From an uncultured Flavobacteriales bacterium (GTDB lineage: Bacteria > Bacteroidota > Bacteroidia > Flavobacteriales_D > Parvicellaceae): a DNA stretch of 33,495 nucleotides. Below the pieces are notes generated by a model that saw nothing but the letters and a program-made list of their open reading frames with translations, made no database searches and had not been told where the DNA came from. The position numbers were made by a program, and so were the translations under genes. Below, piece after piece: positions 1,806 through 31,553 of the stretch. Where the stretch lies: contig CAMZKF010000327.1 of the NCBI GenBank assembly GCA_947311095.1, positions 1-33,495 of the forward strand, written 5' to 3'. Position 1 is the first letter of the stretch. Each line of letters starts with the position of its first letter.

Positions 1806-2741
1806 TTAGTCTTTTTTTGAATGAAATTTTTTAAATCTCAATGCTTCGTTTTCCATTCTTTTTAAGAATTTGTAAGGAGTAGGAATTGCAATCGAAATGG
1901 ATTTTTTTGTTCTCGGATGTGCAAAAGTAATGGAAACAGCGGAAAGAAACAAGCCTTTATGTTTGAGTATTAATCCTTGTTTTCCGTAAAGTTTGTCGCC
2001 CAAAATAGGGCAGCCTAGTGAAGCGCAATGTATTCTTAATTGATGGGTTCTTCCTGTTTGGGGTTTTAATTGGAGTAAACTTAAATGTTTATTTTTTAAA
2101 GATTCTACGGATTTTAATTTAACGAAATTACTAACTGCTTTTTTGCCTTCTATCGGTAGGTCAATTTGTCCTTTTTTTGGAGTATTTCCAATTACAAGAG
2201 CTTGATAGTTTTTTTCTATGGTTTTGTTTTCAAAGGCTAGACCTAAATTTTTTCGTGCTAGTTTTGTTTTTGCAATCAATAGCAATCCACTCGTTTGATT
2301 GTCTAATCGATGAACAGGTAATGCCCAGTTTAAAGCATCTATTTGTTTGCTTTTTTCAATGTTATAGCCCAATGCATTTTGAATGGTTTTGTATTGGTTT
2401 CCACTTACGCTAATTCCAGCTGGTTTATTGATAACAGCTAAATCTTCATCTTCAAAAAGAATCTCTAATTTTAAATGGTATGGTTTGGGTGGAGTTAACT
2501 CTAAATCTAAAAATGTAATTACATCTTTTTCGTTTAACCAAGTACCTCCTTCAACGACTTTTGAATTTAATATTAACTCTCCTTTTTTTATAGCTTTTTT
2601 TACGCCTTTTCGACTGGGGATTTCCATTACAAATTTTTCGCAATAGTTATTGAAACGAACAGGCTCTGAAAGTTTAGGGACAATATATTTTTGTTTGATA
2701 ATACTCAAAATAATACAAGAATTAAATTCTAATTCCAACAA
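1806..2741 (-). CDS. RluA-family pseudouridine synthase with N-terminal S4-like domain
   Basis: PVHRLDNQTSGLLLIAKT, LKPQTGRTHQLRIHCASLGCPILGDKLYG motifs. The start is uncertain because the ORF overlaps the upstream CDS by 20 nt. Confidence 0.92.
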   Translation of the reverse strand: MLELEFNSCIILSIIKQKYIVPKLSEPVRFNNYCEKFVMEIPSRKGVKKAIKKGELILNSKVVEGGTWLNEKDVITFLDLELTPPKPYHLKLEILFEDEDLAVINKPAGISVSGNQYKTIQNALGYNIEKSKQIDALNWALPVHRLDNQTSGLLLIAKTKLARKNLGLAFENKTIEKNYQALVIGNTPKKGQIDLPIEGKKAVSNFVKLKSVESLKNKHLSLLQLKPQTGRTHQLRIHCASLGCPILGDKLYGKQGLILKHKGLFLSAVSITFAHPRTKKSISIAIPTPYKFLKRMENEALRFKKFHSKKD

Positions 2742-4818
2742 TACAGATGTCGTCTAGTTGTTCTAAATTTCCTTTCCAGTTGATAAACGTAGTATTCAAA
2801 ATTTCTTTTTGTTCGGCTACATTCTTGGTTGCTATATTTATCAATAATTCTTTAAAAGGTTTGTATTTGAATTTTTTACCTCTTTCTCCTCCAAATTGGT
2901 CTGCATATCCGTCGGTTGAAGCGTATATCATATCTCCTTTTTCTAGCTGAAACGTTTGTAAAGTAAAAGCTTTGGCGTGTTCCGAATATCCTATTGGTTG
3001 CTTGTCTCCTTTAAGTTCTATTAAGTTTGAATTTCTAACAATATATAGTCCATTTTTAGCTCCTGAAAAAGAAAGTTCTAAACTGTCTTTATCTATAGCG
3101 CAAAAAGCTAAGTCCATTCCATCTCTAATTACATTTGTTTTGTGTTTATTTACAGTATTATACATTTGACTATTTAAATAATCGAGTGCCTGAGCAGGCG
3201 TATTGACTGATTTTTCTTTTAATGTTTGATTAAATATGTTTAATCCTATAATGCTCATAAAAGCTCCAGGAACTCCATGTCCTGTGCAATCGGCTACACT
3301 CATAATTATAACCGAAGAGTTTTCTCGGTCTTTATATGTTGTTTTAGATTCTTTTATCCAATAAAAATCACCACTTACAATGTCTTTTGGCTTAAATAAG
3401 ACAAATGAATTTGGAACTATTTTTTTTACTGCATCAATTGAAGGCATTAAGGCATTTTGTAGTCGTTTGGCGTAGTTGATACTATCTATAACTTCTTTAT
3501 TTTTTTTCGAAAGTTGTTCTTTTTGTTCTTCTAATGCTTCTGTTCTTTCTTTTACTTTTGCAGAAAGCATTTCGTTTTGAAGGTCTATTAAATTATTTTT
3601 TTCTTTTAAACTTATTAATGCTTTTTCTTGAGCCAACTCTTTTTCTTTTTGCAAACCTCTTAGCTTATTAGCCATTGACATAGCGAGTAATAATACTTCA
3701 ATAAATACAGCTGTTTTTAAAGAATATTTAAACAAAAACTCATCATTTATTATTCTGAAGTTTGTTAAAATAAAAATAATAGCACCTGTTACAATTGTAA
3801 AAACAGCCATTGAAAAGTAGGTGCAAATATTTTCTCCTTTATTTTTTAAATAAAGAACTGTTGTTAGGGCTAAAATAAGGGAAACTAAAGAAAATCCATT
3901 AATTAAAAGGTAGGATAAGGCGTGTAATTTTCCTGGTATAAAAGTTAGAAGTGTAATTAGGGATAGAATCCATATAAAAGTTTTAAAAATTTTATTCAAA
4001 CGAGGTAATTTTTCTTTTAATTGTAGAAAACTCTTTATATATACTAAAAATAAAGATGATGCTAAAGCTGCCGAAAAAACAATAATATATTGTTCGAAAA
4101 CAATTGCGTGTTTAAACAGGTAAAAATAAGTCAATCCATCGAGGGTGAATTGAAGTAAGAATACACTAGCAACATAATAAGAATACAACAATAAAGAACG
4201 TTCTTTTATTCCATAATAATAAAAAGCATAAAGAATAATGATGGTTAATAATATGCCGTAAAAAGAACCTAGAAAAAAAGAACGAAGGCGTGTAGAAAGG
4301 TAATATCCTTTAGCGGTATTGATTACAATGGGAACAAGTAAAGCCTCTCCGTCACTTTTTAGTTTCAGTACAAATTGAGTTGGTTTGTTTTTTTCTAATT
4401 TGACAGAAAAAGTATTGTCTATTGTTTTTACTGTGCGTTTAGAAAAGGGGACTTGATCTCCTGTTATTTGAACTTTTTTCACTGTATTGTTTTCTATTTC
4501 GTACAATACAACTTCATCGGCTATAGTTCGAGATATGAAAAAACTAAATTCGTGATTATCTGTTTGGTTTTCTACTTCAAACTTAAACCAATACGACGCT
4601 GACGTAAATCCTAATTTTTCTAATTTACGATCAAAAGGTTTAAAACCTAAAGGACGATGTAAAATAGAATCAATTGTTAATTGATGCGAATCGTCTTGTA
4701 GGTAAACAGTTGACTTCGTAAACGATTGACCTAAATTATTTTCATTCAAGATTATTTTTGTTTGAGATAATGCTACGAAACAAATAAGTAAATTAAGTAT
4801 GAATAAAAGTTTTTTCAA
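2722..4818 (-). CDS. Sensor phosphatase: periplasmic 7TMR-DISM-like N-terminus, seven TM-like segments, coiled coil, SpoIIE-type PP2C domain
   Basis: Signal peptide, sensor domain, run of hydrophobic segments, then PKDIVSGDFYWIKE...SVADCTGHGVPGAFMSIIG...STDGYADQFGGERGKKF. Confidence 0.9.
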   Translation of the reverse strand: MKKLLFILNLLICFVALSQTKIILNENNLGQSFTKSTVYLQDDSHQLTIDSILHRPLGFKPFDRKLEKLGFTSASYWFKFEVENQTDNHEFSFFISRTIADEVVLYEIENNTVKKVQITGDQVPFSKRTVKTIDNTFSVKLEKNKPTQFVLKLKSDGEALLVPIVINTAKGYYLSTRLRSFFLGSFYGILLTIIILYAFYYYGIKERSLLLYSYYVASVFLLQFTLDGLTYFYLFKHAIVFEQYIIVFSAALASSLFLVYIKSFLQLKEKLPRLNKIFKTFIWILSLITLLTFIPGKLHALSYLLINGFSLVSLILALTTVLYLKNKGENICTYFSMAVFTIVTGAIIFILTNFRIINDEFLFKYSLKTAVFIEVLLLAMSMANKLRGLQKEKELAQEKALISLKEKNNLIDLQNEMLSAKVKERTEALEEQKEQLSKKNKEVIDSINYAKRLQNALMPSIDAVKKIVPNSFVLFKPKDIVSGDFYWIKESKTTYKDRENSSVIIMSVADCTGHGVPGAFMSIIGLNIFNQTLKEKSVNTPAQALDYLNSQMYNTVNKHKTNVIRDGMDLAFCAIDKDSLELSFSGAKNGLYIVRNSNLIELKGDKQPIGYSEHAKAFTLQTFQLEKGDMIYASTDGYADQFGGERGKKFKYKPFKELLINIATKNVAEQKEILNTTFINWKGNLEQLDDICIVGIRI

Positions 4819-27803: not shown

Positions 27804-28154
27804 ATTATCAAAAAAATAGTACTCATATTACTTTTACTCTTAGTAGGAGGAGTTGCAAACGAAAGTTATGGTCAATATAGAGATGGCTCGTCAAAGAAAA
27901 AAAAGAAGAAAAAAAGAAAACCTCTTTTTAGAAAGAGTTCTAGTCATACAAAAACAAGTGTAAATCCATTTTCAGGAAAGAAACAAAAAAATTATAGAAC
28001 CAACATTAACGATAGTCCGTTTGCGACTAAATCAAAAGGAAAGAAAAAAAGAAAAAAAACACCAAGGAAATCAGAACCTAACAATAAACCCAGGTTTTCG
28101 AATAAAAAACCTAAAAAAACAAAGTTAGGAGGGAAAACAAAATCGAGGTATTAG
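27804..28154 (+). CDS. Lysine-rich basic secreted small protein with no ATG/GTG/TTG start (not in ORF track)
   Basis: Frame from ATT 27804 to TAG 28152-28154: IIKKIVLILLLLLVGGVANESYGQYRDGSSKKKKKKKRKPLFRKSSSHTKTSVNPFSGKKQKNYRTNINDSPFATKSKGKKKRKKTPRKSEPNNKPRFSNKKPKKTKLGGKTKSRY*; signal-peptide-like N-terminus. Confidence 0.65.
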   Translation: MIKKIVLILLLLLVGGVANESYGQYRDGSSKKKKKKKRKPLFRKSSSHTKTSVNPFSGKKQKNYRTNINDSPFATKSKGKKKRKKTPRKSEPNNKPRFSNKKPKKTKLGGKTKSRY

Positions 28155-28244: not shown

Positions 28245-28775
28245 TTGAAAAAAATACTTTACATATTATTGGTTTTTCTACTTAGTTGCTTGTCAGTTTT
28301 TAGTCAAAACGATGCTGCGTCAAAAGCTAATAATAAAATTAAAGGTATATACGTTTATCAGTTTGCTAAGAATGTAGATTGGCCACAAAAATATAAAAAA
28401 GGAAATTTCGAAATCGCAGTATTAGGAGATAAGGAACTCTATAAACAGTTAGAAAGTGCATATTCAGGACGAAATATAGGAAGTCAACCCATCTCAGTTA
28501 TTTTTTATGAAAGAATAGCAGATGTAAAAATACCTCATTTATTGTATGTATCACCTTATAATAAAAAAACAGCAATAGCTTTAGCAAAAAAACTAAAAAA
28601 CGATAAAACGCTAGTAATAGGAGAGGATAAAGGGTTACTTCAAAATGGAATTATCATAAATTTTGTAGCTAAGAACAATAAGTTAGCTTTTGAAGTTAGT
28701 GAGCTAAATGCTCGAAAAAAAGAATTAATAATTAGTCAAACTTTAGCTAAATTAGCAATCGTAGTTATTTCATAA
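28245..28775 (+). CDS. YfiR/DUF4154-like secreted protein
   Basis: TTG start, signal peptide; NNKIKGIYVYQFAKNVDWPQKYKKGNFEIAVLGDKELYKQLE...LLYVSPYNKK...LVIGEDKGLLQNGIIINFV...KLAFEVSELNARKKELIISQTLAKLA. Confidence 0.85.
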   Translation: MKKILYILLVFLLSCLSVFSQNDAASKANNKIKGIYVYQFAKNVDWPQKYKKGNFEIAVLGDKELYKQLESAYSGRNIGSQPISVIFYERIADVKIPHLLYVSPYNKKTAIALAKKLKNDKTLVIGEDKGLLQNGIIINFVAKNNKLAFEVSELNARKKELIISQTLAKLAIVVIS

Positions 28776-28777
28776 AT

Positions 28778-29707
28778 ATGAAGAAAGAAATTTATATATT
28801 TCTATTTGTTTTAGTTAGTTTTACTAGCTGGTCTTCTTATGCGCAAACATATAATAAATACTGTGCTTATGCCGATTATGCTAATACAGCTTACGAAAGA
28901 AATCAAGTAGAGTCAGCCATTGCTTTAATGGATTCAGCTATTAAAAAATGTCCCGTACAAGCAGACAATGTAGTTAATTGGTTCAATTACGCACTGTTTA
29001 ATAAACAAATGTCAAAAAAAAATAATAGCCTTCAATACAGAGAAAAAACATTCTATTCAATATTAAAAGCAAGAGAGTTAGATACAGATAATGAATTTGA
29101 ATCAAATATAAATAAAGTAATTAAAAGCATTGCTATAGCTTATAAAAACGATGCGATTAAAGGCTTGGCAGATACATCTTCCAATTTTTCAGGAGCAATA
29201 AATAATTATCAAAAATACAAAGAAATTTTAATCGAATCGAATCCAAATTATGTTTTCACACAAGACGACATTAGATTTTACAATGTATTGGCAGAGCGAA
29301 ACTTAATTAAGTATAAAAACAATGAAAATTTATATAAAAATTACTTAGACTCTACTATTCTTTGTTACAAAAGAGTTATAGGACTAGATAGTAGCAAGGT
29401 AGATGCTTACTTAGATTTGGCAATTGTATATTTTAACGAGGCCATTGTTTTAGTTAATAAATTAGAAGTAGATGCTGATATTGAAGAGTTAATGAAAGTA
29501 GATGAAAAAAAAGCTGAATTAGCATTGTTAAGTATTCCTTTATTAAAAAGAGTGTTAGAATTAGAACCAAACAATTCAAAAGCAATTTATAGTTTGTCAG
29601 CTTGTTATAAATTAATATCAAACGAAGAAGAACATTTAAAATATTTAGAACTACTAAAGGAAGTTGATATTGATTATTATAACGATGTTTTTACCATAGA
29701 ACCTTAA
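28778..29707 (+). CDS. Secreted TPR-like protein
   Basis: Signal peptide then helical repeats (YADYANTAYERNQVESAIALMDSAIKKCP; LALLSIPLLKRVLELEPNNSKAIYSLSACYKLI). Confidence 0.78.
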   Translation: MKKEIYIFLFVLVSFTSWSSYAQTYNKYCAYADYANTAYERNQVESAIALMDSAIKKCPVQADNVVNWFNYALFNKQMSKKNNSLQYREKTFYSILKARELDTDNEFESNINKVIKSIAIAYKNDAIKGLADTSSNFSGAINNYQKYKEILIESNPNYVFTQDDIRFYNVLAERNLIKYKNNENLYKNYLDSTILCYKRVIGLDSSKVDAYLDLAIVYFNEAIVLVNKLEVDADIEELMKVDEKKAELALLSIPLLKRVLELEPNNSKAIYSLSACYKLISNEEEHLKYLELLKEVDIDYYNDVFTIEP

Positions 29708-29720
29708 TGTTGTTAAACAA

Positions 29721-31553
29721 ATGAGATTTACAGTAGGTAAAAAAATAGGTTTAGGTTTCTTGGTAATAGGTTTTTTATTGTTAACTGTTTTTGCTGTGAC
29801 CTTGTCTGTGGTGACAGAGGCAGAAAAGACAATGCAAACCAGTATAAATAATAACAAAAAATACATCGAAGTAGGTCAACCAACCGTAGATAAATTAATT
29901 GCCTTAAAATTCAATCTTAGCAACTCCTTAAAGTATATTCAACACATTACTTATCAGCAAACAAAGTCTAATGCAGAAGAACGAACAAATCTAAACACAT
30001 TATTAAGAGCTAGTATTCCAGGAGATTTAATATTTTTAGACAGTATAAAAAATCAATGGTCTGGAGCTAAGAAAAAGGAAAGTATTAATCTATTTAACTC
30101 AATTAAATCGGAGATAAAAAAAACAACAGAAGATTATTATTCAAAAATAGGAAATGTTCTAAAAGGATTTGAAGATTACGAAGGTTTAGAGGTTTTTGAA
30201 GCTCAAACAGATTATGAATTGAATATTAATCCAAGGTTTCAAACCATAATAAAAAATGTTGAAATTCTTCTTGTTATAAAAAATAAAGAATTAGAGGAGC
30301 AAAAAGAAAAAGGTTCAGCTTCTTTCGAGGCTACCAACATAAAATTTAATTTTTTATTTTGGGGTATATTAATAGCGGGGACAGTACTTATAATCGGAAC
30401 GTTAATTATAGCAACTTTTACTACAATAAGTATTACAACGCCAGTTCAAGAGTTGAAAACATTTTTAATTGATTTGGGAAAAGGAATTATTCCAGAAAAA
30501 CATATAAAGCCAAGCAACGATGAAATAGGAGAAATGGCGGTAGCAATGAATAATTTGGTTGATGGACTAGAAAGAACAACCACTTTTGCAAATGAAGTTG
30601 GTAAAAGTAATTTCAATTACCCTTACGAACCACTAAGCGACAAAGACACCCTAGGTCATGCACTACTTGTCATGAAAGACGAACTAGCTGAAAGCGAAAG
30701 AGAACTGGAGAAAAAAGTAGTAGAACGAACAAAAGAAGTTGTTTTACAGAAAGAAGAAATAGAACATCAAAGCGAAAAATTAGAAGAATTATATAAAGAC
30801 ATTACAGCTAGTATTCGTTACGCAAAGAGGCTACAAGATTCAATACTTCCTCAAGATAGATATATAAAAAAAATATTACCTAATTCATTTGTCTTATTTA
30901 AGCCCAAAGATATTGTAAGTGGAGATTTTTATTGGATACAAGAAATAGAAAATAAAGTTGTTTTTTCTGCTGTTGATTGTACAGGTCACGGAGTTCCTGG
31001 AGCATTTATGAGTTTGATAGGAGCAAATTCCTTAACTCGAATTGTGAGTGAAAATAAGGTCACTAAACCAGCTGTTATTTTAGACGAGCTAAACCGACTT
31101 TCCTCTGAAGCATTAAATAAATCGGAACAAGGGAACGAAGTGAGAGATGGAATGGACGCAGCATTGTGTACGCTCAACAAAGAAACATTAGTTTTGCAAT
31201 ATGCAGGAGCAAATAATCCTCTGTACCTTGTTAGAGGTAACGAAGTGATACAAATAAAAGCCGATAAATTTGCTATAGCAGGTTTTGTTCCCGATACAAA
31301 AAACTACACAAATCACGAGATTCAATTAGAAAAAGGAGATGTTATTTATCTGTTTTCAGATGGTTATGCCGATCAGTTTGGAGGAGAAAAAGGGAAGAAA
31401 TTTATGTATAAAAGATTTCGAAACTTGTTACTTCAAATTAAAGATAAAGCTCCTGCGGAACAAAAGCAGATATTGAATGAGACGCTTGAAGATTGGCGAG
31501 GTGTACACGAACAAGTTGACGATATACTCGTGATTGGGGTGCAAATTAAATAA
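29721..31553 (+). CDS. HAMP-containing SpoIIE-type PP2C sensor phosphatase
   Basis: TM1, ~180-aa extracytoplasmic region, TM2, HAMP (TTPVQELKTFLIDLGKG...SNDEIGEMAVAMNNLVDGLERT), coiled coil, DIVSGDFYWIQE...AVDCTGHGVPGAFMSLIG...FSDGYADQFGGEKGKKF. Confidence 0.92.
   Translation: MRFTVGKKIGLGFLVIGFLLLTVFAVTLSVVTEAEKTMQTSINNNKKYIEVGQPTVDKLIALKFNLSNSLKYIQHITYQQTKSNAEERTNLNTLLRASIPGDLIFLDSIKNQWSGAKKKESINLFNSIKSEIKKTTEDYYSKIGNVLKGFEDYEGLEVFEAQTDYELNINPRFQTIIKNVEILLVIKNKELEEQKEKGSASFEATNIKFNFLFWGILIAGTVLIIGTLIIATFTTISITTPVQELKTFLIDLGKGIIPEKHIKPSNDEIGEMAVAMNNLVDGLERTTTFANEVGKSNFNYPYEPLSDKDTLGHALLVMKDELAESERELEKKVVERTKEVVLQKEEIEHQSEKLEELYKDITASIRYAKRLQDSILPQDRYIKKILPNSFVLFKPKDIVSGDFYWIQEIENKVVFSAVDCTGHGVPGAFMSLIGANSLTRIVSENKVTKPAVILDELNRLSSEALNKSEQGNEVRDGMDAALCTLNKETLVLQYAGANNPLYLVRGNEVIQIKADKFAIAGFVPDTKNYTNHEIQLEKGDVIYLFSDGYADQFGGEKGKKFMYKRFRNLLLQIKDKAPAEQKQILNETLEDWRGVHEQVDDILVIGVQIK

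Follow-up and report, generated by a model that had tools for sequence, protein, structure and literature searches.

The DNA analysed here (the window, 33,495 nucleotides) is an entire contig from the 2.88 Mb draft genome, 92% complete, of an uncultured Flavobacteriales bacterium. Three neighbouring genes on its plus strand encode periplasmic YfiR (DUF4154), an exported TPR protein and a membrane-bound PP2C phosphatase (Table 1), with gaps of 2 nt between the YfiR and TPR genes and 13 nt between the TPR and phosphatase genes. The coordinates and gaps given in an earlier note on this DNA were confirmed, and Pfam and hydropathy agree with its domain calls (YfiR/DUF4154; TPR; TM-periplasmic-TM-HAMP-PP2C), the HAMP match being weak. 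The three genes probably constitute a switch in which periplasmic YfiR, whose most familiar role is in c-di-GMP control, instead governs a membrane phosphatase that dephosphorylates signalling proteins.

Table 1. Features of the YfiR-TPR-phosphatase locus in the window.
Feature	Coordinates	Strand	Basis
Small Lys/Arg-rich exported protein with 'GQYRD', candidate fourth gene	27804..28154	+	Homologous basic ORFs upstream of YfiR
YfiR/DUF4154 periplasmic protein	28245..28775	+	176 aa, TTG start; Pfam PF13689 1.2e-28
TPR protein, exported	28778..29707	+	309 aa, all-helical superhelix; Pfam TPR, AlphaFold2, Foldseek
Membrane phosphatase, TM-periplasmic helical bundle-TM-HAMP-coiled coil-SiaA-like PP2C	29721..31553	+	610 aa; Pfam SpoIIE, NCBIfam SiaA, PDB 6K4E
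TM helix 1, residues about 13-31	29757..29813	+	Kyte-Doolittle
Periplasmic sensor region, residues 32-211, modelled as a four-helix bundle	29814..30353	+	AlphaFold2; Pfam without CHASE8
TM helix 2, residues about 212-230	30354..30410	+	Kyte-Doolittle
HAMP domain, residues 237-284	30429..30572	+	Pfam HAMP 0.0021, weak, below Pfam cut-off
SpoIIE/PP2C phosphatase domain, Pfam boundaries	30951..31547	+	Pfam SpoIIE 2.9e-21; Asp conservation; Foldseek 6K4E

The window's YfiR scores 100.4 bits against PF13689 (YfiR/HmsC-like; cut-off 24.9 bits) and begins with a hydrophobic segment of the export type by Kyte-Doolittle hydropathy, a signal peptide. Its assignment rests on Pfam, since a single-sequence search of the PDB returned no match and a YfiR profile matched P. 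aeruginosa YfiR in the PDB weakly (E 0.2). Aligned through this weak profile match, F149 and E150 of the window's protein correspond to F162 and E163 of P. aeruginosa YfiR, surface residues proposed as YfiN contacts, whose counterparts are thus kept here; the first position is aromatic (F or Y) in 96 of 96 homologues and the second is E in 77 of 96. P. aeruginosa YfiR has two disulfides (C71-C110, C145-C152) and is under redox control (PMC4887326). Disulfide-based control of this kind cannot apply here because the window's YfiR has no cysteine after residue 40, that is, in its mature part; cysteines are absent from 42 of the 96 homologues and number zero or one in 78. The viral contigs that we scanned for YfiR relatives held none.

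The TPR protein matches Pfam TPR families (best 8e-7), its AlphaFold2 model has a mean pLDDT of 94, and Foldseek matches it to TPR proteins. By eye its N-terminus resembles a signal peptide, one that falls below the 19-residue hydropathy threshold. Pfam finds no OmpA match in this protein, and YfiB, the OmpA/Pal-like lipoprotein of the YfiBNR system, is absent from the operon; by analogy with that system, the TPR protein, whose gene is the middle one in 96 surveyed loci, is the likely substitute for YfiB in the role of third component.

In the window's family a further small gene separates ferritin from YfiR, and its basic product carries 'QYRDP(F)' after the signal peptide. Homologous ORFs are found 5' of YfiR in loci L056, L061-L063, L088, L104, L105, L109, L110, L113, L114, L120 and L126-L129. 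Neither in the window nor in four loci of the same genus (L056, L105, L113, L114) is there an ATG, GTG or TTG near the signal peptide, so annotation would miss this ORF; ATT or ATC are possible starts in the window, and ATT, ATC or ATA over the window and these four loci. The protein may be a fourth member of the operon.

In its AlphaFold2 model (mean pLDDT 84) the receptor part of the phosphatase forms helices at residues 5-78, 86-112, 118-144 and 156-253, with pLDDT mostly above 80 there; the periplasmic part comes out as a four-helix bundle instead of the CHASE8/PAS domain of YfiN, and a PP2C domain is modelled as well. A distant homologue of the receptor matches 4HB_MCP_1. Pfam detects no CHASE8 in the window's receptor, and none was found anywhere in the same genome. 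The AA[VIL][VIL]F motif was likewise found in none of 96 receptors, a point that is weak alone; since a similarly strict pattern also missed three CHASE8 receptors, the difference in domain is the stronger argument. The weak HAMP match gains support from its location after the second TM helix and from HAMP matches in homologues, and its residues D267, E268 and G270 are invariant across 28 homologues. The earlier note had described a YfiN-like architecture in which PP2C replaces GGDEF. What stands of this description is the TM-periplasm-TM-HAMP topology; the periplasmic domain and the missing YfiB speak against it, and we rejected the view of the receptor as a YfiN with a swapped output, with topology alone in common.

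The C-terminal domain is, by sequence and fold comparison, a SiaA-like phosphatase with an intact catalytic site. It matches the NCBIfam SiaA model (NF038263; 6e-69) over the C-terminal 300 aa only, at 233 bits where the equivalog cut-off is 700. SiaA-PP2C (6K4E) is its sole sequence match in the PDB (1.2e-38) and its best fold match by Foldseek (TM-score 0.91, normalised by target length); SpoIIE, RssB and RsbU rank behind it. The metal-binding aspartates D402, D419, D547 and D600/D601 are all present, and 94-96 of 96 homologues keep them. Phosphatases of triad loci cluster in a PP2C tree, and two paralogues from the same genome (L004, L010) are placed close to them, though with uncertainty; we therefore do not claim a strict single origin. 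The window holds a second SiaA-like phosphatase at 2722-4818 on the minus strand, which combines a 7TMR-DISM extracellular domain, seven TM helices and PP2C.

DUF4154 occurs in 174 of 299 genomes of Flavobacteriales. We classified 119 loci, namely the neighbourhoods of 118 of the stronger DUF4154 matches and the window itself. Ninety-six carry the full triad YfiR-TPR-HAMP/PP2C in that order, and complete triads are found in families f1, f2, f3, f4, f7, f8, f9 and f10; ten more are consistent with the triad up to the contig end, one is uninformative, five have a single-domain YfiR with other neighbours and seven have YfiR fusions. Conservation of the gene order, on which the earlier note had staked its proposal beforehand, was thus borne out by this neighbourhood survey. 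The YfiR and TPR genes are mostly joined by overlapping stop and start codons (the commonest gap is -4), and the triad is retained while its flanks vary among ferritin, RNase R, groES and propeller genes. Outside Flavobacteriales, no triad was seen in a phylum-wide sample.

Fusions and exchanged partners extend this picture. At two loci (L080, L081) a single protein runs from YfiR through a long coiled coil and one TM helix to SpoIIE/PP2C. With the conserved gene order, these two natural fusions give good support to the coupling of YfiR, TPR protein and PP2C receptor that the earlier note had proposed. In L076-L079 and L082, YfiR lies within an ORF of about 603-611 aa that has a TM helix and stands directly 3' of an ORF of about 900 aa; the one scanned, L076, is a fusion of YfiR to a histidine kinase preceded by a gene for a TonB-dependent receptor. 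At three loci (L093, L097, L121) YfiR adjoins a CHASE8-HAMP histidine kinase, that is, a genuine YfiN-type receptor. With the receptor N-terminus as query we also found loci in Cytophagales and Bacteroidales (L144, L148-L151, L157) in which YfiR precedes a four-helix-HAMP front end that ends in GAF or GAF-PAS, and no catalytic domain was found in the scanned receptors of this group. Since the same front end stands beside YfiR with a different rear end, YfiR travels with the four-helix-HAMP front end; with PP2C, histidine kinase and GAF/GAF-PAS partners counted together, YfiR is found with two kinds of receptor front end and with three or more kinds of rear end.

At two of the CHASE8 loci a gene for a protein with a 5'-nucleotidase C-terminal domain lies directly upstream of YfiR and the histidine kinase (L097, 5523-6284, minus strand; L121, 4245-4886, plus strand), preceded in L097 by a TonB receptor gene. 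These loci are possibly nucleotide-sensing.

In P. aeruginosa, SiaC is phosphorylated by SiaB and dephosphorylated at Thr68 by SiaA; in its free form it switches on the diguanylate cyclase SiaD (PMC7278518, PMC8457831). The genome that contains the window has four intact SiaC-family genes, one broken one and three SiaB-like genes, and at the aligned T68 site three of the four intact proteins have T or S and the fourth has I. GGDEF domains were not found in this genome at its 92% completeness, and SiaD is accordingly absent. Contig C305 has a PP2C gene with SiaC directly after it and another PP2C gene that overlaps SiaB; the whole run there (L207, 4677-9982) reads PP2C-SiaC-PP2C-SiaB and then a SiaC gene broken by stop codons. 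Over the order, SiaC occurs in 246 of 299 genomes and GGDEF in 9 of 299. With this rarity of GGDEF and the predicted PP2C output, the earlier suggestion that YfiR control has moved off c-di-GMP to protein dephosphorylation holds up well. By a count that ignores relatedness, SiaC is present in 164 of 174 YfiR-positive genomes versus 82 of 125 others.

In the loci examined, neither a SiaC match nor a SiaB gene was found beside the triad; the one SiaB-like match among the loci is in L097, next to a YfiR of the histidine-kinase type. An apparent linkage of YfiR to SiaB and SiaC in genome G103 (L205) was rejected, as YfiR there serves a histidine kinase and genes for a TonB receptor, a ZIP transporter and a methyltransferase intervene between its operon and SiaB-SiaC. 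The window's genome also encodes an RsbW-like HATPase_c_2 protein (C115) and short STAS ORFs (C8, C222), so SiaC has rivals as the substrate, although it is the likeliest candidate. There are 26 SpoIIE/PP2C matches in this genome, corresponding to about 20 or more proteins, several of them split at contig ends or between frames; many phosphatases thus face few substrates, with four to five SiaC and three SiaB proteins.

In YfiBNR, YfiR represses the receptor by binding to it, and YfiB draws YfiR off (PMC3375315, PMC4887326); it is by analogy with this system that we propose a hold-off by YfiR and its relief through the TPR protein. Periplasmic YfiR would bind the receptor's periplasmic helices and most likely keep the receptor inactive, and the exported TPR protein would be the likely counter-partner that removes YfiR or relays an envelope signal, as YfiB does. 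Altered YfiR binding would shift TM helix 2 and the HAMP domain and so turn the cytoplasmic SiaA-type PP2C on or off. The phosphatase would then strip Ser/Thr phosphate placed by SiaB-like kinases on SiaC-like (STAS-fold) proteins, and the dephosphorylated SiaC-like protein would bind a target of its own. That YfiR touches the receptor and represses it, that the TPR protein acts in this way and that SiaC is the substrate are our inferences. To the reading as a whole, namely that YfiR restrains or frees a SiaA-type phosphatase acting on SiaC-like proteins and is itself modulated by the TPR protein, we assign a probability of roughly 0.6. Several points weigh against it: some 20 other PP2C proteins share the few SiaC proteins, an RsbW-like kinase and short STAS proteins are encoded as well, neither SiaC nor SiaB lies beside the triads examined, and the receptor is without PAS/CHASE8, the domain bound by YfiR in YfiN.

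The sign of control could be the reverse, with YfiR activating the phosphatase, for instance as a ligand-binding co-receptor, and the TPR protein loading or localising YfiR. The receptor domain is unrelated to that of YfiN, and the permanent tethering of YfiR to PP2C in L080 and L081 fits a built-in sensor as well as it fits a repressor. P. aeruginosa YfiR also binds small molecules (PMC4887326), but the characterised YfiR system is a repressive one (PMC3375315, PMC4887326), and we consider activation somewhat unlikely.

Other doubts concern the substrate and the coupling itself. STAS proteins are substrates of RsbU/SpoIIE phosphatases, which belong to the SpoIIE family too, so that the same YfiR-gated receptor might serve the RsbV-like STAS protein of an RsbW-type partner switch, or another phosphoprotein, and the RsbW-like protein and short STAS ORFs of this genome would suit such a switch. 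Yet SiaA is the nearest relative of the PP2C domain in both sequence and fold, and PP2C genes are physically paired with SiaC and SiaB in the genome; either alternative substrate seems to us improbable. The three genes might even be mere neighbours co-inherited within one order, YfiR acting elsewhere, as would fit the confinement of every triad to Flavobacteriales in the phylum sample; we think this very improbable given that the triad is kept despite differing flanks, that its genes overlap and that YfiR is fused to PP2C and to histidine kinase.

If gating of a SiaA-type phosphatase by YfiR is the correct reading, YfiR control would take in, besides second-messenger synthesis, Ser/Thr dephosphorylation as well as a receptor domain without kinship to that of YfiN, and the locus would offer an entry point to the many SiaA-type phosphatases and SiaC-like proteins of bacteria that mostly have no c-di-GMP synthases. 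Thanks to the natural fusions of YfiR with PP2C, the coupling can be put to a direct test. On a broader view, to which we give about even odds, YfiR serves as a general control protein of the periplasm that has moved to an unrelated class of receptor, one with a four-helix-bundle HAMP front end, and that in Flavobacteriales runs, with the TPR protein, an undescribed order-wide, c-di-GMP-free SiaA-SiaC-SiaB phospho-switch. A search of openly accessible literature found no paper linking YfiR, PP2C and Bacteroidetes.

Among known systems, YfiBNR of P. aeruginosa (HmsCDE in Yersinia) likewise combines YfiR/DUF4154 with a receptor of TM-periplasm-TM-HAMP topology whose cytoplasmic output is catalytic, and includes a third, exported protein. 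There, however, the receptor has a PAS/CHASE8 domain and a GGDEF output and the third protein is the OmpA/Pal-like lipoprotein YfiB, whereas here a helical bundle, PP2C and TPR protein take these positions, and the mature YfiR differs in being cysteine-free. The CHASE8-HAMP histidine kinase loci L093, L097 and L121 share with the window a YfiR gene adjoining a receptor of this topology but have the true YfiN-type periplasmic domain and a histidine kinase output, with a TonB receptor near in L093 and L097. SiaA of the P. aeruginosa SiaABCD system is, like the phosphatase here, a membrane-bound PP2C; it is the closest solved relative, and relatives of SiaB and SiaC are present in the genome. Unlike SiaA, the triad phosphatase of the window shares no operon with SiaB and SiaC, lies in a genome without SiaD or GGDEF, is paired with YfiR and TPR genes and falls below the NCBIfam equivalog cut-off. 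Malone et al. (2012; PMC3375315) showed that the YfiN PAS core is conserved among YfiR modules of divergent bacteria while the output attached to it may be GGDEF-EAL, Hpt, histidine kinase or MCP. Those modular YfiR-YfiN[PAS] systems resemble ours in joining YfiR control to differing outputs; the text consulted names neither a PP2C output nor another receptor domain, whereas here both are changed. As YfiR with other outputs had already been described in 2012, we regard the system in the window as a widespread new form within the known idea of the YfiR module.
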